A stretch of DNA of 64,000 bases, from NCBI RefSeq assembly GCF_000332175.1, contig NZ_KB235910.1:736278-800277 (forward strand), written 5' to 3'. Below, piece after piece: positions 16,398 to 37,652 of the stretch (the first letter of the stretch is position 1; every line of letters starts with the position of its first letter). Source of the stretch: Pseudanabaena sp. PCC 6802. Its GTDB lineage: Bacteria > Cyanobacteriota > Cyanobacteriia > Pseudanabaenales > Pseudanabaenaceae. A model generated the notes under the pieces. It saw only the letters and a list, made by a program, of their open reading frames with translations, had not been told where the DNA came from and did no database searches. A program made the position numbers and the translations under genes.

Positions 16398-18665
16398 ATG
16401 GCCGATCGAGATAAACAAGAATCTGGACGAGAATCCAAACCTACTATGGGTGGTGGGATGCCTGTAGTGAGCTATTGGGCTGAGAAGACTCTAACGCCCC
16501 AAGGGTCTCTTCTGTGGCAGACGCTGATGCACAAAAGTGCTTGTCTCTCTTGCGCCTGGGGCGCGGGCGGTCAAAAGGGAGGATTTCGTAATGAAGATGA
16601 AGAGCCGCTGCAACGATGTGCGAAAAGCGTAGAAGCGATCGCCTCAGAATTGATGGAGCCAGTACCGGAACGCTTGTTTGCCGATCGCAGCATCGCCGAA
16701 CTCCAACAGTTAACTTCCCAAGCAGCAGATCGACTGGGCAGGCTCAGTTTCCCAGCTATCCTCAGAGCCGGATCGTCCCACTACGAGCGCATAAGTTGGG
16801 ATGAAGTTTATGAGTTGGTGGCAGCGGCATTGCGAAGATCGCCGGAACGGGTAGCATCCTACAGTTCTGGACGATCTTCTAACGAAGCGGCGTATTTACT
16901 GCAACTGATGATGCGGGCTTTGGGTTCCAACAACCTCGCGGATTGTTCCGATCTTTGTCATGCTGCTTCTACGGTGGGACTGAAGCAGATGTTTGGTTCG
17001 GGCACGTCAATGGTAAGTCTGAGCGATCTAAAGCAGGCGGATTGCGTTGTGTTAATTGGCTCCAACGCTCCTGCCAATCACCCTCGCTTAATGAACGAGT
17101 TGATTAAACTGCGCGATCGCGGCGGCAAAATTGTCGTTGTCAATCCACTCCAGGAAGTGGGATTGGTGAAATTTGCTTCGCCAGCTTATCCCTTAACTTC
17201 GCTCTTAACTGGATCCGAGATTGCCTCGCTCTATATTCAACTAATTCCAGGTAGCGATGTCGCTTTGTTTGTCGGCATCCAGAAATCTCTACTAGAGCAG
17301 GGACTAGTCAAGTTTGACTACCTCAAACAACATGCGGAAGGGTGGGAAGCGGTAATTCACCAGGCCGAGCAGACTAGCTGGGATGCGATCGCCAGCACCT
17401 GCGGGATCGATCGCGAAGCGATCGCCGCTGCTGCCAAAGTCATCGGCACGGCGGAACGAGTAGTTTTCGCCTGGGCGATGGGTGCCACCCAACATGCTAA
17501 TGGTGTGGATAATATCTTCAGTATCGCCAATACTGCCCTGTTAACTGGTAACGCGGGTAAGGTGGGTGCGGGGACGATGCCCATTCGCGGGCACTCCAAC
17601 GTACAGGGTTTTGGCTCGATGGGCGTGACAATTCGCCTCAAAGAGGAGATCCGCCAGGCACTGGAACAATTGCTACAGCGATCGCTCAGTCGCGTACCTG
17701 GTTATGATACCCGTGCCGCGATCGTCGCAGCCGATGAGGGCAAACTCGATACTCTCTTGTGTTTGGGAGGAAATCTCTATGCGGCGAACCCAGACTCGAC
17801 GCAAGTTCGTCGTGCTTTGGGAAAGATCGAGACGATTATTTACGTAGCAACCAAACCCAATCTGGGACATTTCCACGGTCTTGCTAAGCAAAATACGATT
17901 ATCGTGCCAGTATTTGCTCGATTTGAGAATCCCCACAAAACCACTACCGAGTCGGGTAATAATTTCGTGCGGCTTAATGATGAAGGGACATCTCATCTCA
18001 AGGGGCGATCGGCCACGGATTTAATTTCGGAGGTGGAATTTCTCACTGAAATTGCCCATCGCTTGCATGGCGATACTCCGGTCGATTGGCGCAAGCTTCA
18101 GGATACGAAATATATTCGTCAGCTAATTGCCAAGACTATACCTGGTTACGAGCAAATTGGCGAAATCGACGACACAAAATCTGAGTTCACAATTAAAGAT
18201 CGCATTTTCCACGCGCCGCATTTCCCCACGCCATCTGGCAAAGCCACTATGTTTGTCACTCCGATACCGAACCTGAAGCTACCCACTCTTGCCGACTTTG
18301 ATATTCCCAGTTCTGCCAGAGCGATCGCGGTAACGCTTAGTACGGGACGGAGTTACTCGCAACACAATACTGTAGTTTACAAGCAGGGTGACTACTATCG
18401 CGGTATGCCCCATCGCAACTGCATTCTGATGAATCGAGATGATGTCGAAGGTGCTGGGTGGAAGGAACACCAGCGCGTTACGGTTAAGGGCGATGCGGGT
18501 AAGATGGAGAGTGTAGAAATTATCTACGGTGCAATTCGACGGGGTTGCGCTTTGATGTTCTACCCTGAAGTGAATGCGATTTTCTCTGCTCAGATCGATC
18601 CGCGCTGCGGCACGCCCGCCTACAAGCGCGTACCCGTAGCCATCTATCAGGAACCCATTCTATAG
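16398..18665 (+). CDS. Molybdopterin oxidoreductase, YdeP / FdhA-like
   Basis: 755 residues of the TIGR01701 type (formate-dehydrogenase-like alpha subunit, as E. coli YdeP). Starts 9 bp after the CAP gene with AGGAGG at 16387-16392. ACLSCAWGAGGQKGG near residue 50 is the family signature. NLADCSDLCHAAS aligns with the formate dehydrogenase loop, whose Cys or Sec binds molybdenum. GNAGKVGAGTMPIRGHSNVQG and the C-terminal NTVVYKQGDYYRG/GDAGKME segments bind the cofactor. The substrate is unknown; YdeP homologues are tied to acid resistance in E. coli, which need not hold here. Its stop codon lies inside repeat B1. Confidence 0.88.
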   Translation: MADRDKQESGRESKPTMGGGMPVVSYWAEKTLTPQGSLLWQTLMHKSACLSCAWGAGGQKGGFRNEDEEPLQRCAKSVEAIASELMEPVPERLFADRSIAELQQLTSQAADRLGRLSFPAILRAGSSHYERISWDEVYELVAAALRRSPERVASYSSGRSSNEAAYLLQLMMRALGSNNLADCSDLCHAASTVGLKQMFGSGTSMVSLSDLKQADCVVLIGSNAPANHPRLMNELIKLRDRGGKIVVVNPLQEVGLVKFASPAYPLTSLLTGSEIASLYIQLIPGSDVALFVGIQKSLLEQGLVKFDYLKQHAEGWEAVIHQAEQTSWDAIASTCGIDREAIAAAAKVIGTAERVVFAWAMGATQHANGVDNIFSIANTALLTGNAGKVGAGTMPIRGHSNVQGFGSMGVTIRLKEEIRQALEQLLQRSLSRVPGYDTRAAIVAADEGKLDTLLCLGGNLYAANPDSTQVRRALGKIETIIYVATKPNLGHFHGLAKQNTIIVPVFARFENPHKTTTESGNNFVRLNDEGTSHLKGRSATDLISEVEFLTEIAHRLHGDTPVDWRKLQDTKYIRQLIAKTIPGYEQIGEIDDTKSEFTIKDRIFHAPHFPTPSGKATMFVTPIPNLKLPTLADFDIPSSARAIAVTLSTGRSYSQHNTVVYKQGDYYRGMPHRNCILMNRDDVEGAGWKEHQRVTVKGDAGKMESVEIIYGAIRRGCALMFYPEVNAIFSAQIDPRCGTPAYKRVPVAIYQEPIL

Positions 18666-18808
18666 CCGTAGACAGATCTGTTAGGACAGGGGGTGTGGGG
18701 GCGTAGCCCCCACGCAGGGGAGGCAGGGCAGTCTTGGGGGTTCCCCGCTAGAGCCACTGCCGTGTGGAACCACTGCACCCCGTCCTAAGCCTATTGGCTA
18801 TAGCTATA
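18661..18808 (+). repeat. Repeat family B, copy B1 (long form with cassette)
   Basis: 148 bp from TATAGCCGTAGACAGATC to GGCTATAGCTATA. The first five bases supply the TAG stop codon of the molybdoenzyme gene. Between gcagggg and ctgcacccc it carries the same cassette as A1/A2 (aggcagggcagtc to ccactgccgtgtgg). Copies B2 and B3 lack it and are 105 bp long. Confidence 0.8.
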
Positions 18809-18873
18809 TGAGGCGATACCCACGAAAAATTTACAGGCAATTTCTTCTTTCCAGTAGTTTGGCTTGGTTGCGT

Positions 18874-20406
18874 TCATGTCATCCGATCTAAGGTGCGGTA
18901 TTGGACGGCCTCGGCGAGGTGGGGTGTTTCGATCGCTTCTTTGCCAGCGAGGTCGGCAATCGTGCGGGAAACTTTGAGGATGCGATCGGTGGCGCGGGCG
19001 GAGAGTCCAAGGCGGCGGATGGCAGCTTCAAGAAGGCTGAGGGATGACTCGTCGAGCTGGCACCACTTACGTAGGTGGCGACTTTGCATTTGGGCGTTGC
19101 AGTTGAGTTTTGCTTCTTTTTGGAAGCGCTCTTGCTGGCGTTGGCGGGCAGCCTGGACGCGCGATCGCACCTCGGTTGAACTTTCGCCTTCCTTATAGCT
19201 GGTCATTTCCTCGGGTTTGAGGCGGTTGACTGCGACCTGGAGGTCGATGCGATCCATTAATGGCCCTGATAGCTTAGCCCAATATTGTTCGCGTTGTTTG
19301 GGCGTGCAGGTGCAGGCTTGAATGGAATCGCCGTAGTAACCGCACTGGCATGGATTTGTACTTGCAACTAAAGTGAATTGGGATGGGTACGTAACGGACT
19401 GTCGCGTACGGGAAATAGATACGTAGCCATCTTCTAAGGGCTGTCGCAGGAATTCCAATACTTCGCGTTTAAATTCTGTAAGTTCGTCAAGGAATAAAAT
19501 ACCATGATGAGCGAGGGATATCTCACCAGGCTTGGGATAACTGCCACCACCCACAAGTGAGGGGCCGGAAGCGGAGTGATGGGGACTGCGGAAGGGGCGA
19601 TCGCTGACCAAACCTCTGCCCTTGAGCAATCCGGCGACGGAATGCACTTGAGTAGCTTCTAAGGCTTCTTGGAAAGTCATGGGAGGCAAAATCCCCGGCA
19701 AGCGTCGTGCCAGCATGGTTTTGCCAGAACCAGGCGGCCCCACAAAAATCAAGTTGTGCCCGCCCGCCGCCGCAATTTCGAGGGCGCGGCGAGCGTGTTC
19801 CTGACCCTTGACATCTTTAAGATCTAATGGAAAGGGGGCGGCAGAATTGGATGAATTTGAAAGTGTTGTTGCCCTGCTGGCTGGAGTGTACTTATGGGGC
19901 GTAGCGAGAAATTCTCCCACTTCGGTGAGGTTGCGCAGGCCGTAGACAGATAAACCTTCAACTACTGCTGCCTCTTGAGCGTTCTCGACCGGAACGATCA
20001 GGGCTTTGATGCCTAGTTTAATCGCTGTAGCAGCGATCGGCAGCACGCCTGCGACGGGACGCAAGGAGCCATCGAGGGATAGCTCGCCCAGGAACAAAAA
20101 ATTATCGATTAGTTGCACGTTGACTTGCTCGGAGGCGGCCATAATCCCGACACTGATTGGCAGATCGAAGCTGGGACCCTCTTTACGCAGATCGGCAGGC
20201 GTAAGGTTGATAACTATTTTTTTCATGGGAAAGGTATAGCCGGAATTTTTGAGGGCGGACTTGACGCGCTCTTTACTTTCCTGGACGGCGGTATCTGGTA
20301 ACCCCACCACCACAATTCCCGGCAGTCCTCCGGCCACATCAACCTCAACCCCTACCTGGATGGCTTCGATTCCTAGAACTGAGGCACTCCAAACTCTTGC
20401 TAACAT
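18874..20406 (-). CDS. comM: YifB/ComM family Mg-chelatase-like AAA+ ATPase
   Basis: 510 residues. N-terminal ChlI-like domain (VGLPDTAVQESKERVKSAL, INLTPADLRKEGPSFDLP), then an AAA+ core with Walker A GPPGSGKTMLARR, Walker B ILFLDELTEF and a Cys-rich loop (STNPCQCGYYGD). The family helicase drives branch migration of incoming ssDNA in natural transformation (shown for ComM in other bacteria). The ATG directly abuts the stop of the TOPRIM-like gene upstream (TAAATG), so it is the last gene of that run. Confidence 0.92.
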   Translation of the reverse strand: MLARVWSASVLGIEAIQVGVEVDVAGGLPGIVVVGLPDTAVQESKERVKSALKNSGYTFPMKKIVINLTPADLRKEGPSFDLPISVGIMAASEQVNVQLIDNFLFLGELSLDGSLRPVAGVLPIAATAIKLGIKALIVPVENAQEAAVVEGLSVYGLRNLTEVGEFLATPHKYTPASRATTLSNSSNSAAPFPLDLKDVKGQEHARRALEIAAAGGHNLIFVGPPGSGKTMLARRLPGILPPMTFQEALEATQVHSVAGLLKGRGLVSDRPFRSPHHSASGPSLVGGGSYPKPGEISLAHHGILFLDELTEFKREVLEFLRQPLEDGYVSISRTRQSVTYPSQFTLVASTNPCQCGYYGDSIQACTCTPKQREQYWAKLSGPLMDRIDLQVAVNRLKPEEMTSYKEGESSTEVRSRVQAARQRQQERFQKEAKLNCNAQMQSRHLRKWCQLDESSLSLLEAAIRRLGLSARATDRILKVSRTIADLAGKEAIETPHLAEAVQYRTLDRMT

Positions 20407-21153
20407 TTAAGTGCCCCTCCATGAATCTTGGCTTAATTGTATTTGTGTAATGCTACTAAGCTTCCCGTTTAAAAGTTGATATTGGTCAGTTCGAGGTTGA
20501 TGCAAACATTGCCAACACCATGCAAATAATGTTCGCAAGGATGCACAGGTATCCGGGTTTGATAAAACTTTTTCAGTATCAAGGCAAGCGAGAATTTGTC
20601 CACCATGTTCTAACTCCTCAAAGCCCTGATAAATTGCCTTTAATTTATTTTTAGGATGAGGAATCTCTTCAACATCATAGTCACAGTCTTCTAAAGAAGT
20701 CCCCAGGACTGAATTTACTGCGCTAGCATCAGCAAAATAGTATGCTTCCAACATGTTAACGAGGAAATGCACAGAAGCTCGATGTTTTTCTTGAGAAAGC
20801 ATCGTATCAAGTGCAAGTCGGTAACGATTAAAAACTTCTGTTGCTTGGTCTCTGCGATCCTGTTCTAGATCGTCAATCAAAAGTACATAGTCGATGTTTT
20901 CATTTAACCGCCTTCTGGCTTCAAGCCCAATCTCCTCCTCATCTCGATTGGGAATTGTTTGACCGCTCCCTACCATTTTTAACTTTTTCTTGTCAGAAGT
21001 AATTGGCGATCGCTGTCCGATTTGACGAATGACCTCAAAATAACAAGTCCCCAATTTTGTCAGCGAACGAAAAAGCATAGGTAAGTGTTGAGCTTCAGTA
21101 TCTCCAGTCACAATTAAGCCAAACTTGACGAAACGCCATGCTGAGTCGCTCAT
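20407..21153 (-). CDS. TOPRIM-like (DUF4276-type) protein paired with AAA ATPase
   Basis: 248 residues. The start VKFGLIVTGDTEAQHLPMLFRSL resembles the TOPRIM opening with E20 (usual form EGxTE). YVLLIDDLEQDR (D94, D95, D99) matches the DxD strand. HFLVNMLEAYYFAD matches the E/D helix found in DUF4276/DUF4435-like nucleases. Such proteins act as the nuclease partner of an AAA15 ATPase in defence modules (for example AriB in PARIS). Its ATG overlaps the ATPase stop by 4 bp (ATGA). Assignment to TOPRIM is by motif reading only. Confidence 0.6.
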   Translation of the reverse strand: MSDSAWRFVKFGLIVTGDTEAQHLPMLFRSLTKLGTCYFEVIRQIGQRSPITSDKKKLKMVGSGQTIPNRDEEEIGLEARRRLNENIDYVLLIDDLEQDRRDQATEVFNRYRLALDTMLSQEKHRASVHFLVNMLEAYYFADASAVNSVLGTSLEDCDYDVEEIPHPKNKLKAIYQGFEELEHGGQILACLDTEKVLSNPDTCASLRTLFAWCWQCLHQPRTDQYQLLNGKLSSITQIQLSQDSWRGT

Positions 21154-22349
21154 CTAGCTAACCCTTCAACCAAAGTCTGACTTTGCCGACTTTGTGGTGC
21201 GATCGCCTCAGACATATACAGCGAACCAACAGCATATTCCTCTAGCAAATCCTGGACTTCCTCCATTTCGCTAACTCTTTTAATTACAGTTTGCCCCAGA
21301 TCGTCTACTTCGGTAACTAATATATTTTCTGGATTAAATTGACTCATCAAAACAGGAGAATGAGTAGCAATAAATACTTGTTTATTCCAGCTTGTTGTAG
21401 CTAGTTTTACTGCCTTGGCAAAGGTAGCGATCGCCCAGGGATGTAGAGATATTTCTGGCTCATCAAATAAGATTAAAGAATTGCGCTCTTCTCCTTCAGA
21501 AAAAAGCGCTGTGAGGTGTATAAGCATTTGCAAATAACCATCAGACACTCCCGAAGCTTGAATTGGTTTTCGTCTTCTTCTCTCTAAAAAACTCCCATAG
21601 ACTGTACTTGGGCCAGTCTGCTCGATTAAAAGATCGTCAAACAATGGGAAACTTTCTCTCATGAGATCGACAATTGTATCGTACCGTCGATCGATTCTGC
21701 GCTTATCATGCAGGTTTCTTAAAACTGACCAGAGGTTATCAGATCGATCCCACAACCATGTGTGATAGCTAGACTCCGATCCTCTTTGCTTCAAGACAAA
21801 TAAGTTAGCTTGTCGCGCATGATAGAGATGTACGAAATGAAGTAACTTGTCTAATTCAGAGGTTTCTTCAACATCTTCTTGAAAATCAACATACTTACTA
21901 AAGGCAAGTCTTTCGGGATCTCTCAGATCGAAAGTAGCATAACCAAGGGATAGATGATAGAATTTAACCTTATCACTACCAACTTTGCGATCGATTAAAT
22001 TAATATTTCTAACCTTGGAGTATAATTTTTCTCCTACAAAGGGTTCGATTCTTCCTGATGAATAGCTGAATAGAACCTCATATTTTACACTCTCAGTTTC
22101 AATCTCAATTGATATATTTGTATTTTCATCGTCTGCTCCATCCCACAATGCTCCAATGCCGTGGCTCCTAGCGCTGGATGCTTGTTCAACCCCTCTAATT
22201 GCACAATCTCGAATAAACCAGATTGTATCTAGAAATGTTGACTTGCCAGCACCGTTTGCGCCAAATAGGACGTTCAAATCTTTAAGCTCGATGTCTATAT
22301 CTGCTAACGAGCGAAAGTTTTTAACTCTGAGGTGCGTTAATTTAGACAT
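21150..22349 (-). CDS. AAA15/OLD-like ATPase (RecF-SMC type)
   Basis: 399 residues. N-terminus LRVKNFRSLADIDIEL with Walker A G30-ANGAGKST; signature region SGVSDGYLQMLIHLTALF; Walker B SLILFDEPEISLHPW; switch histidine FIATHSPVLMSQF. This is the ABC-type ATPase of the COG1106/COG4637/AAA15 group, which is the sensor part of several two-gene phage-defence systems. Starts 9 nt after the dapF stop and overlaps the TOPRIM-like gene by 4 bp, so the two must be co-translated. Confidence 0.85.
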   Translation of the reverse strand: MSKLTHLRVKNFRSLADIDIELKDLNVLFGANGAGKSTFLDTIWFIRDCAIRGVEQASSARSHGIGALWDGADDENTNISIEIETESVKYEVLFSYSSGRIEPFVGEKLYSKVRNINLIDRKVGSDKVKFYHLSLGYATFDLRDPERLAFSKYVDFQEDVEETSELDKLLHFVHLYHARQANLFVLKQRGSESSYHTWLWDRSDNLWSVLRNLHDKRRIDRRYDTIVDLMRESFPLFDDLLIEQTGPSTVYGSFLERRRRKPIQASGVSDGYLQMLIHLTALFSEGEERNSLILFDEPEISLHPWAIATFAKAVKLATTSWNKQVFIATHSPVLMSQFNPENILVTEVDDLGQTVIKRVSEMEEVQDLLEEYAVGSLYMSEAIAPQSRQSQTLVEGLAR

Positions 22350-22358
22350 GGTACCTAA

Positions 22359-23234
22359 CTAACTGTCTTGACTTATCTGAGCCTGACCTGTAAATACTTT
22401 TTGGGCTGGGCCTGTCATTAAGACATGGTTGGTTTCCGCAACCCAATGAATCTTGAGATCGCCGCCGGGGAGGTTAACGGTACAGGTGCGATCGCACAGG
22501 TCATTTAAGACGCCGGCAACCACAGAAGCGCAAGCTCCCGTACCGCAGGCGAGGGTAGCTCCAGCTCCGCGCTCCCAAACGCGCATTTTCATGTAGTCGC
22601 GACGCACCATTTCAATAAACTCGGTATTGGTGCGCTGAGGGAAAACGGCATGATGCTCGAATTTTGGGCCAATCTCAGCTAAAGTGATATTACCTACATC
22701 GGTCACAAAAGTAATGCAGTGGGGGTTACCCATGCTGACGGTGGTGACATGCCACGTTTGTCCTGCCACTTCAAGCGGAACGTTAATGGCTTTGCTGTCC
22801 GGCTCGGCTAGTGTAGTGGGGATTTCCCGAGCCAGCAGGCGCGGTTCTCCCATATCGACGGTAATCTGTCCGTCCGCATCCAGTTGCAGTACCATCAGAC
22901 CCGCTCCAGTTTGGATGTGGTAGCGTTTGTCTATAGGAGCTATTTCCAGATCCACCATAAATTTGGCAAGGCAGCGGATGCCGTTACCGCACATTTCTGG
23001 CTCGGAGCCGTCGGAGTTAAAGATCCGCATGCGGTAATCTCCAGGCTGACCATCTGTGGCGGGGAGCAGGAAAATTACGCCGTCAGCACCAATGCCAAAG
23101 TTACGATCGCACCACTTAATTGCTTGTGCTGCTGTGAGTTTTGGTTCGGGGCGATCGCGGTTATCGATCAGGATAAAGTCGTTACCGAGACCGTGATATT
23201 TGCTAAATGCTAATTGTTCTACCTGTGATGCCAT
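22359..23234 (-). CDS. dapF: Diaminopimelate epimerase
   Basis: 291 residues. Converts LL- to meso-diaminopimelate for lysine and peptidoglycan. Opening [15 protein letters not shown], first catalytic cysteine in EMCGNGIRC, second in [10 protein letters not shown], and VSMGNPHCI between them. Full length for the family. First gene of a minus-strand run dapF-ATPase-TOPRIM-comM. Confidence 0.95.
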
Positions 23235-23304
23235 GCCCGAAACCTAGATCGTAAGTACTTATTTGCCTTAATCGTAACTTAATACCAATTTAAATTGTTG
23301 TGGT

Positions 23305-23390
23305 TGCGGATGGGAGGTGGGGGCAATGACCCCATGCAGGGGTTCTACCCCTTCACCCCGTTCGATCTGAGGACAGCATGTTGGACTGGC
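23305..23390. repeat. Degenerate A/B-type palindromic repeat
   Basis: ggtgggggcaatgacccc, then gcaggggttctaccccttcaccccg and gatctgagga, resembles the core of the A/B repeats without intact ends. It occupies part of the 213-bp gap between trpD and dapF. Decayed copy. Confidence 0.45.
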
Positions 23391-23447
23391 ATCGGCATAG
23401 TGTGCGTGACTTGAAAGGGGCTTGCCCCCCATTGCTTAGTCCCCCCA

Positions 23448-24485
23448 TCAACTGTTCAGAAATCCTACTAATTGCTCTAATTTTTGCCATGCGGCACCGC
23501 TGCTAATCACTTCAGATGCCAGCTTTACTCCTTCTGCCCAGGTATTTGCTTTGCCTGCTACCCGTAAAGCAATGCCACTATTGAGGGCAACGCAATCTGT
23601 CTGGGCGACTGTACCCTTACCCTGCAATACAGAGCGTAGAATTTCAGCATTTTCAGCGATGCTGCCACCTTTAAGTGCAGAGCTAGAAGCATTGGATAAT
23701 TCTAAAGCTTGCGAGTCGATCGCTTCTAAGGTAATGCGATCGCCCTGTAGAAAGGCAATATCCGTAAGATCGCCCAAACCTGCCTCGTCCATCCCTTCGC
23801 GGCTGTGCAAGACGACGGCTTGCTGGCGACCCAGGATCTGGAGCGCCTGAGCCACAGTCTGAAGCAAATCCTTGTGATATACGCCCATTACCTGCGCGGT
23901 TGGTTGTGCGGGATTCACCAGTGGCCCGATCAGATTAAAAACGGTGCGAACGCCCAAACTGCGACGAATGGAACCCACAGCTTTCATGGCAGGATGCCAG
24001 TTAGGCGCAAACAGGAAGGTAATTCCCACAGAGGGGAGCGCGTCGTAAATTTTCTCTGGTGTCGCTGCCAGATTCACGCCCAGCGCTTCCAGGACATCGG
24101 CTGAACCCGAGCGGCTGGACATGGCGCGATTGCCGTGCTTGGCAACTGGAACGCCAGCGGCGGCAGCGACAAAAGCTACGGCAGTTGAGATGTTAAATGT
24201 CTCTGCTCCATCACCGCCCGTACCGCAGGTGTCCAGGAGACTGTTCATGCCATGACTGAGGGAGGAATCTGCCGCCTGCCCCAGAGATAGCTGCTGCAAT
24301 ACGCCTGCCATTGCTGCCAGTTCCACTGCTTCTATGCCCTTACATTGCAGTGCCACTAAAATTGCACCTGACAACTCCGGTGCGATCGCCGCGTCTAGCC
24401 AACCCTGCATCAGTGTAGTGGCTTGCTCGCGATCGAGCGATCGTTTATCAATCAGTTGTTTGAGAATCTCAGACCAATTTGTCAT
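23448..24485 (-). CDS. trpD: Anthranilate phosphoribosyltransferase
   Basis: 345 residues. Second step of tryptophan synthesis, joining PRPP to anthranilate. PRPP loop [67 protein letters not shown]. Starts 27 bp after the DUF4440 gene on the same strand, probably co-transcribed. No other trp genes are adjacent, as is usual in cyanobacteria. Confidence 0.95.
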
Positions 24486-24512
24486 GTTAGTTGGGATAAA
24501 GATGTTGGGAGT

Positions 24513-24890
24513 TTATACGATCGCACTAACGCTGCCGCCTGCAATTTGCCAGCCGTTTTCGCCTTTGCGCCACACCCTCATATAGCGGTAGTCGCCCGCG
24601 AAGGCATTTCCTAAATAGGTACCGCTCAGGAAGATTTTAGCCGATGCCAGAACGAAGCGATCGCTCCAAACTCGTATCTCTAGCTCCTTGAGCACGAATT
24701 CATGGAACTGCGTGCCACCAGTGCGATGCAACTCCAGATCCATCGCTTTGGTCGCCAAATCGCCAGTCGGCCCCGCGAACAACAGGTCATCGGCGATGAG
24801 CGCGTCCAACTCGGCCACATCTGAAGCACGCATTGCGGCATAAAGTCGCGCTTCGCATGCGCGGATTTGGGTTTCGATGTCTGGACTCAT
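24513..24890 (-). CDS. DUF4440 / SnoaL-like NTF2-fold protein
   Basis: 125 residues (IRACEARLYAAMRASDVAELDALIADDLLFAGPTG, MRVWRKGENGWQIAGGSVS). This is the single cone-shaped NTF2-like domain of DUF4440. Such proteins bind small molecules or act as minor enzymes; substrate unknown. Its ATG is the edge of the left 25-bp direct repeat of the 24.9-26.4 kb islet. Before that insertion it would have followed the TIGR01777 gene by 3 bp. Confidence 0.8.
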   Translation of the reverse strand: MSPDIETQIRACEARLYAAMRASDVAELDALIADDLLFAGPTGDLATKAMDLELHRTGGTQFHEFVLKELEIRVWSDRFVLASAKIFLSGTYLGNAFAGDYRYMRVWRKGENGWQIAGGSVSAIV

Positions 24891-36170: not shown

Positions 36171-36869
36171 CTAGCTAGATTTTCTGGGATAAATGATAGG
36201 ATACTCCTCTGGGTTACGCCGAGCACACGGTAAATTAACTTTAAAAACTAGGAGATTGAGTTTGTTATCTTCATATTTATACTCTGCTAAGTGGCTTCCA
36301 CAATCGCTTCCTCCAGCCCTAGAAAACATCCTAAAGGTTCTATTTTTTGGGTTGAATGTGGGAAGCCCAGCTACTGATTTTTTGGACACTTCTTTCAATA
36401 AACCGCCATCTTCTATTATAACTTCTTTTAGGGGCAAAGGTCTCAAACTAACTTTCTGGTTGGACTTTTCATAGATAAAAAATTCAAAATTACCTTGATA
36501 ACTTGCCCAAAAACAAAGTACTTCAACAAAAAATTTATTTTCCCCCACGCGAAATATGTTGAGTTGTCTATCTTTATTCTTTTTGAATTCCCTATCGAAG
36601 AAAGAACCTGTGTAATTGCAAATCTTAAATCTTTCTCGATTTGAGAAAACAAACGACCATATCTCTAATTTCTTTTCGGCGCTGGGTAAATAGTCTTTTA
36701 ATTTCTCTTTTTGTAATTCCACAAAGCTTTTCTGTGACGCAGGAACCTCTTGATTTCTTTTGGAAATCTCACACCCCTCACTTGCTCCTTTGAGTATAAA
36801 AGGTACAGTAAAAAGAATGGTGACAAAAGCTTTTAAGCAGAGATTATCGAGCATGTTTTGATTAGGCAT
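36171..36869 (-). CDS. Exported protein with DUF1176-like C-terminus
   Basis: 232 residues. N-terminal hydrophobic signal (LCLKAFVTILFTVPFILKGAS). The C-terminal block FNPKNRTFRMFSRAGGSDCGSHLAEYKYEDNKLNLLVFKVNLPC resembles the end of DUF1176 proteins (DCGssxxWxWdGkxFxLxxxxxxxxC). DNA here is visibly AT-richer than the flanking housekeeping genes. It starts 7 bp after the stop of the broken adhesin/GH19 gene, so it was probably co-transcribed with it and may have served it. Function unknown. Confidence 0.6.
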   Translation of the reverse strand: MPNQNMLDNLCLKAFVTILFTVPFILKGASEGCEISKRNQEVPASQKSFVELQKEKLKDYLPSAEKKLEIWSFVFSNRERFKICNYTGSFFDREFKKNKDRQLNIFRVGENKFFVEVLCFWASYQGNFEFFIYEKSNQKVSLRPLPLKEVIIEDGGLLKEVSKKSVAGLPTFNPKNRTFRMFSRAGGSDCGSHLAEYKYEDNKLNLLVFKVNLPCARRNPEEYPIIYPRKSS

Positions 36870-36875
36870 AAGGAT

Positions 36876-37652
36876 CTAGTTGATTAAGAATTGCTTTGCA
36901 TTTGCTAAATATACACGTCTTCTACTCAAGTAAGTGCGAGGCCCCTCTGTAACATCACCATTTACTATTAGAGTAATGTCTCGCAATATCTTTTCGCTAT
37001 TTATCCCAACATCTTGATCTGCTATTAAACTGAGATCTTGACCTTTAAAGATTTTCCAAAAATATCCAGCACTAAGGGTTGCTAAAGCCGGATTAGTCGC
37101 AACTTGCTTTGGGAAGGGATCAATAGTAAGAGTTTTTCCTAAGCCTAAGTAAAGTGTAAACGTCTCTTCCAGTAATCTGGATTAATCCTCTACCCTTAAA
37201 TCGCTTGCCATCTCCTGGTTCAGTGTTGCCAAGATCTAATCTTCCTTCGTATTCAGAACCATCAGCGTATTCCTCAGTCGTATTAAATGAATCTGCTTCC
37301 TGAATTAGCTGAGCAAAGAAGTGAGACTTCCTAATACCTGTATTGATAGTGTAGACAGCCATAACAACATTTAGATATGGAAGTAACTGACTGGCTAACT
37401 GTGAATTAGTCTCAGGAGCAATTTGAAGAAGCTGTTGTAATGTAACTTGAGGAGATAGACTAAGAGCTAGGCTTACTTGGGCAAATGGCGATCCTGTTGA
37501 AAGACCTGGTAGGAACGGGAGCATATCACTAATCACCTTATCCGTTACAGACTGGGAGCCATTACCTGCAATAATAAAGGGCATTCTGATTTGAATATTA
37601 TTCCAATCACAGTCAGCAACAAAGGCATGAATTCCACTGCTCGCATCAAAGG
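36876..37652 (-). pseudogene. GH19 chitinase-like C-terminal part of a broken adhesin gene
   Basis: Minus-strand reading from the IS edge gives FDASSGIHAFVADCDWNN, a linker, then a GH19-type lysozyme/chitinase domain: HFFAQLIQEADSFNTTEEY, YEGRLDLGNTEPGDGKRF, GRGLIQITGRDVYT. One extra base near 37150 shifts the frame. After it the domain continues as YLGLGKTLTIDPFPKQVAT, NPALATLSAGYFWK, INSEKILRDITLIVNGD, to TAG at 36876. GH19 domains cut chitin or peptidoglycan-like glycans. The frameshift kills the product unless bypassed. Its 5' part lies across the IS element. Confidence 0.75.

Follow-up and report, generated by a model that had tools for sequence, protein, structure and literature searches.

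A putative HEC-01-type ATPase/DUF4276 gene pair with a divergent motif I between dapF and comM of Pseudanabaena sp. PCC 6802

The gene pair and its position

The window, i.e., the whole stretch of 64,000 nucleotides of Pseudanabaena sp. PCC 6802 that was analysed, contains two genes, here designated A and B, which lie on the minus strand in the order dapF, A, B, comM. The following features were assigned:

22359..23234, minus strand: dapF, diaminopimelate epimerase, the upstream housekeeping neighbour (GC 0.52)
22350..22358, minus strand: 9-bp junction between the dapF stop and the start of gene A, left edge of the putative insertion
21150..22349, minus strand: gene A, OLD/AAA_21-type ABC ATPase of 399 aa, HEC-01A type
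21150..21153, minus strand: ATGA, 4-bp overlap of the gene A stop and the gene B start
20407..21153, minus strand: gene B, DUF4276 protein of 248 aa, HEC-01B type
20404..20409, minus strand: right edge of the putative insertion, gene B stop codon TAA directly followed by the comM ATG
18874..20406, minus strand: comM, Mg-chelatase-like AAA+ protein, the downstream neighbour (GC 0.54)

Coordinates, strand and the spacing of the four genes (a 9-bp gap, the 4-bp ATGA overlap and a 0-bp gap), all given in the first-pass annotation, were reproduced on the open reading frames. The GC content is 0.40 for A and 0.41 for B, with a GC3 of 0.33 for both, while the other long open reading frames of the window, dapF's neighbours among them, have a mean GC of 0.49 (GC3 0.49, sd 0.06). 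Of 57 other relatives, 34 of them from the same family, none yielded a match to B, and almost all carry dapF and comM. To judge from the sequence, A and B look like a foreign insertion between dapF and comM. Two further open reading frames of low GC (0.36 and 0.41) were noticed in the window at 36171-37584; the first has a sub-threshold match to DUF1176, the second no Pfam match.

In four same-family genomes dapF resides beside comM with nothing in between. At these empty sites the two genes overlap by 11 nt (G002) or by 7 nt (G009 and G007) or are 48 nt apart (G003), and comM begins with GTG instead of the ATG found here. The comparison places the left edge of the insertion close to the end of dapF and its right edge at the start codon of comM. 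It also disposes of the possibility, considered in the first-pass annotation, that the pair might be universally conserved at this locus. The dapF-comM junction itself is not universal, since the two genes are non-adjacent in most other same-family genomes. We recognised neither a mobile-element gene at the insertion nor neighbouring defence genes at the comM/dapF site, and a convincing direct repeat marking both edges was not detected. A perfect 13-nt inverted repeat near both ends of gene B (20428-20440 and 21110-21122, 669 nt apart) is probably due to chance, as are, in all probability, other short repeats. The C-termini of DapF (..QISQDS, 22359-22385) and of B (..QLSQDSWRGT, 20407-20440) are alike, the sequence TAAG[TC]CAAGA being common to both; the resemblance may have arisen by chance or may reflect the origin of the insertion.

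From the spacing of the genes it is plausible that the pair is expressed from the dapF transcript. Promoter and terminator scans yielded signals not above chance and thus speak neither for nor against a promoter belonging to the pair itself. A search of Rfam over 18600-24600 gave no match, and hence no known retron-type RNA in this region.

As a side observation, four genomes of the same family (G023, G029, G026, G030) have comM in two pieces separated by about 45-56 kb. At the break in G023 (L080:16171-18641, L079:1441-1827) there is a gene reading by eye as a large serine recombinase, and because of this gene comM looks like an integration site in that genome.

Relatives and family assignment

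Eleven intact members of the family were identified. In each of them B follows A, with a spacing of -4 to +6 bp, and together they occupy about six different chromosomal sites; decayed C-terminal remnants were found at two. The pair of a Coleofasciculus MAG (L001) shares 79% (A) and 62% (B) identity with that of the window. Five pairs lie beside tldD (G084, G153, G202, G508, G534) and two beside a parA-like gene (G629 and G630, the latter with typA on its other side), while one follows a CbiX gene (G220) and one is flanked by a threonine dehydratase gene and by one that reads as purD (G301). TldD, TypA, CbiX and threonine dehydratase were named by Pfam, parA and purD by reading the sequence. 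Four genomes (G556, G536, G613, G623; loci L168-L171) contain just the C-terminal 50-80 residues of B without an ATPase match. As these remnants adjoin the same tldD or typA/parA genes as intact pairs in relatives, we concluded that old copies decay. The family was detected in 6 out of 386 genomes of the phylum and, remnants included, in 7/155 and 5/62 genomes of two families. This pair thus appears to move as a unit. At the sensitivity used, phage, plasmid and viral-contig collections contained no relatives of B, and two other DUF4276 sets had no relative on viral contigs; the ATPase gave one weak match on a viral contig.

Protein A matches AAA_21 (5e-29) and AAA_15 (1e-22) in Pfam, and its best PADLOC match is HEC-01A (1.4e-51, residues 2-384). 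It exhibits the features of an OLD-type ABC ATPase, namely a Walker A motif (GANGAGKST), a Walker B motif (LILFDEPEISLHP; LILFDEP), a signature-like stretch (SGVSDG) and an H-loop (ATHSPV). Walker A, Walker B and H-loop had been recognised before, and their key residues proved to be invariant in the 11 members except for S/T at position 37. Sequence matches in the PDB include GajA, an OLD-family endonuclease, AriA, PtuA and Rad50. The ATPases of the 11-member group form one clade (100/100); the remaining DUF4276-linked ATPases of cyanobacteria fall outside it, with an identity of about 25% for the nearest.

The assignment of protein B is closer to the limits. Its Pfam match to DUF4276 (PF14103; 3.3e-7) has 31.2 bits and thus lies just over the curated cut-off of 30.2 bits; of its relatives, L001 (34.7) and L166 (37.2) are above and L070 (27.7) is below this value. 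A profile of seven subfamily members matched cyanobacterial DUF4276 (96.8%, E 2.4e-10, 184 columns). In PADLOC six matches were obtained, all to HEC-01B; the best of them is weak (5e-7, residues 7-176) and scores 27.7 bits, where two ordinary members from cyanobacteria reach 268 and 321 bits. The HEC-01 labels used here refer to E-values and bit scores of the PADLOC models. Three families had been suggested for B, of which DUF4276 was affirmed by Pfam and by profile comparison. DUF4435, lacking a Pfam or PADLOC match (profile E 0.39), was rejected. The same holds for RloB (PF13707), which resembles B by eye in its motif order (EG..TE, a D-rich strand end, NE.FE) but lacks a Pfam match; its profile comparison (E 0.038, 59 columns) is not clearly separable from chance. 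NCBIfam named neither A nor B above its cut-offs, and searches of PDB sequences with B, its subfamily profile and the canonical DUF4276 profile returned nothing relevant. Pairwise dN/dS values between relatives are 0.10-0.16 for A and 0.21-0.44 for B, indicating that both genes are under purifying selection and maintained, B changing faster. Along with the matches to curated families (AAA_21, DUF4276), these low values argue against a chance observation.

Attempts were also made to clarify whether B is a TOPRIM protein. The DUF4276 profile aligned weakly to OLD TOPRIM (56% probability, E 1e-4, 36 columns); reversed controls gave E 0.2 or worse and the positive control, DUF4435 against OLD, 97.8%. 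The B subfamily profile alone gave no signal to any of the TOPRIM sets. AlphaFold models of B were poor, with a mean pLDDT of 34 for B alone and of 46 when one relative was added. In the latter, low-confidence model residues 9-118 follow a beta-alpha-beta-alpha-beta-alpha succession and D94/D95 lie where a strand ends, an order compatible with TOPRIM; Foldseek found no significant match to it (best E 0.23). A TOPRIM fold of B is suggested by its membership in DUF4276 and is regarded here as likely.

DUF4276 is common in cyanobacteria (81 of 386 genomes), and at most of twenty additional loci that were examined the gene directly in front of the DUF4276 gene encodes an ABC ATPase of about 390-475 aa. 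The pair of the window would thus represent a diverged offshoot of a two-gene plan that is widespread. The first-pass annotation had likened this plan to PARIS and split OLD systems, but had found that protein sizes and motifs did not clearly fit the named ones; here PADLOC supplies the name HEC-01 by its models (HEC-01A 1.4e-51, HEC-01B 5e-7), and the pair is therefore less unplaced than it had seemed. Judged by its sequence, it belongs to the HEC-01 candidate class as a divergent member whose motif I is altered, and does not constitute a system of a new kind. HEC stands for 'Hma-embedded candidate' (PMC12988326). Our literature search disclosed no description of HEC-01 anti-phage activity (nearly all text matches to HEC-01 were unrelated by title), no mention of DUF4276 and no phage phenotype for the DUF4276/HEC-01-like family.

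With HEC-01 the pair shares the succession of an ABC ATPase gene and a DUF4276-type gene, and B matches HEC-01B models only, although it is far from every one of them and has Thr in place of the motif I Glu. OLD-ABC genes pair with various nucleases (PMC12839542). In PARIS (AriA and AriB, proposed as class 4 OLD) the ATPase and the TOPRIM-type protein are likewise encoded by two genes of a single operon, and A matches AriA models and the Walker B/H-loop half of AriA, whereas neither Pfam nor PADLOC nor profile comparison revealed a DUF4435/AriB match for B. OLD nucleases (class 1, Gabija GajA, retron Eco8) possess an OLD-type ABC ATPase as well, and their TOPRIM motif I aligns weakly with that of DUF4276; in contrast, the window pair is split into two genes, is devoid of a helicase or reverse transcriptase partner and has the metal-ligand Glu substituted in B. 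WonAB and PD-T4-4 also combine an OLD-ABC ATPase with a small nuclease in two genes, but their nucleases are predicted to be PD-(D/E)xK enzymes (PMC12137116), while B matches HEC-01B alone in PADLOC.

Acidic positions of protein B

The motifs of B are VTGDTE (motif I), IDDLEQDR, NMLEAYYFAD and HPK. Motif I aligns without a gap to VEGQTE of other DUF4276 proteins, by which E20 corresponds to the second acid and T16 to the first. Thus, E20, D94, D95 and the LEAYYFAD stretch are present as the first-pass annotation had stated, but E20, which had been taken for the canonical TOPRIM glutamate, aligns to the second acidic position. Thr16, at the position of the VEG-motif Glu, is invariant in all 11 subfamily members, the hhEG glutamate being absent. 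Among 45 scorable other cyanobacterial DUF4276 proteins, 42 have Glu at this position; the remaining three, which make up one other subfamily (L135-L137), have Gly. In these three proteins (B of G275, G308 and G115) the Gly belongs to an AGGG stretch, the strand end reads DDLD and an ABC ATPase gene is adjacent. A second substitution, M134, is also invariant (11/11), at a position occupied by Glu in 37 of 46 other DUF4276 proteins.

The residues E20, D94, D95 and E136 are invariant in the 11 members. All of them have, by alignment, an acid after motif I (E20), a DxD-type strand end (D95-L-E97) and a late Glu (E136). Other DUF4276 proteins retain E136 throughout and D95 and the acid at position 20 in most cases, and D94, E97, K168 and K172 are fixed within the B subfamily. 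In Bp OLD the first Glu (E400) binds metal A and E404 metal B, and with alanine in place of E398, the counterpart of E400, P2 Old loses its lethal effect (PMC7049728). Unlike wild-type AriB, its Toprim mutant E26A does not cause ribosomes to stall (PMC12409363); we infer that E26 is the same position as the first Glu of motif I. Since T16 and M134 replace the usual residues while the remaining acids are kept, B either makes up for the loss with other acids or works by a different chemistry. Both substitutions count against the module proposed below, in which B acts as a nuclease.

Proposed function and alternatives

We consider it probable that the pair is a horizontally moved two-gene defence module of HEC-01 type. 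By analogy with PARIS, where AriA senses and AriB cuts tRNA (PMC12409363, PMC12839542), and with WonAB, where the ATPase is required for toxicity of the nuclease and translation stops (PMC12137116), A would be the sensor and gate, and B the abortive-infection effector. A would form an ABC-ATPase dimer that holds and gates B and senses the invader. B, the DUF4276 effector, would most likely be a nuclease that depends on metal and has a TOPRIM-like core. Infection would cause A to release B or to switch it on, and active B would then arrest the cell or the phage, probably through cleavage of RNA or DNA. A role in defence is supported by the intact ATPase motifs, the fixed pairing, the patchy distribution, the different sites and the decay of old copies. 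Against this reading stand T16 and M134, the poor structure models, the literature read, which gave no phage phenotype, the lack of recognised defence genes beside the pair, and the failure to find relatives of B among phages, plasmids and viral contigs at the sensitivity used.

A so far unlabelled pair is thus placed in a named, little-studied candidate class of defence systems, and it is seen to enter and to decay at junctions between ordinary housekeeping genes, no mobile element having been seen in its surroundings. A naturally altered TOPRIM-type site would show to what extent such effectors depend on the two-metal site. If the pair is just an ordinary member of HEC-01, its value lies mainly in being a test case from cyanobacteria.

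Within the same module, B may not be a standard two-metal TOPRIM nuclease at all: the subfamily with its fixed losses at T16 and M134 and its fixed D94 and E97 beside D95 could have an unstudied metal arrangement, as a one-metal or otherwise altered enzyme, or could be a catalytically dead, non-cleaving binding effector that still serves defence. We regard this as possible though doubtful. It is favoured by the invariance of both substitutions and by the role of the matching OLD Glu as a metal A ligand, and it agrees with E20, D95 and E136 having remained. On the other hand, the strict conservation of the other acids and of K168/K172 and the purifying selection on B suit an active enzyme, D94 or E97 may replace the lost ligand, and the positions were matched through alignment and not through structure.

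Two other explanations abandon defence as the primary role. A toxin-antitoxin-like selfish pair, kept by addiction and with only secondary effects on phages, would account for the compact, overlapping genes and for single copies scattered over chromosomes, and AriA was called an antitoxin by the PDB depositors in some entries. Nevertheless, we judge it unlikely, because A is missing from the remnants, which retain just a C-terminal part of B, indicating that loss is tolerated, and because in WonAB, which has a related plan, the need of the ATPase for toxicity rules out simple sequestration (PMC12137116). Very unlikely, in our opinion, is an OLD-like pair for host maintenance, e.g., in DNA repair or the cell cycle, that is mobile by chance. 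Not all OLD-family ATPases are defensive, as Cran1 of Saccharolobus has a cellular role (PMC12796447), housekeeping genes adjoin the pair, and ABC ATPases like A also resemble Rad50/RecF. However, the very patchy presence, the different sites and the repeated decay do not suit maintenance, and the related PADLOC models were assembled as defence candidates.

A second pair was observed at one of the tldD sites. Directly upstream of the HEC-01-like pair of G202, the region L074:11757-13531 harbors another ABC ATPase gene (413 aa) and a 174-aa partner without a Pfam match, and thus two ATPase-led pairs are arranged in tandem beside tldD in this genome.
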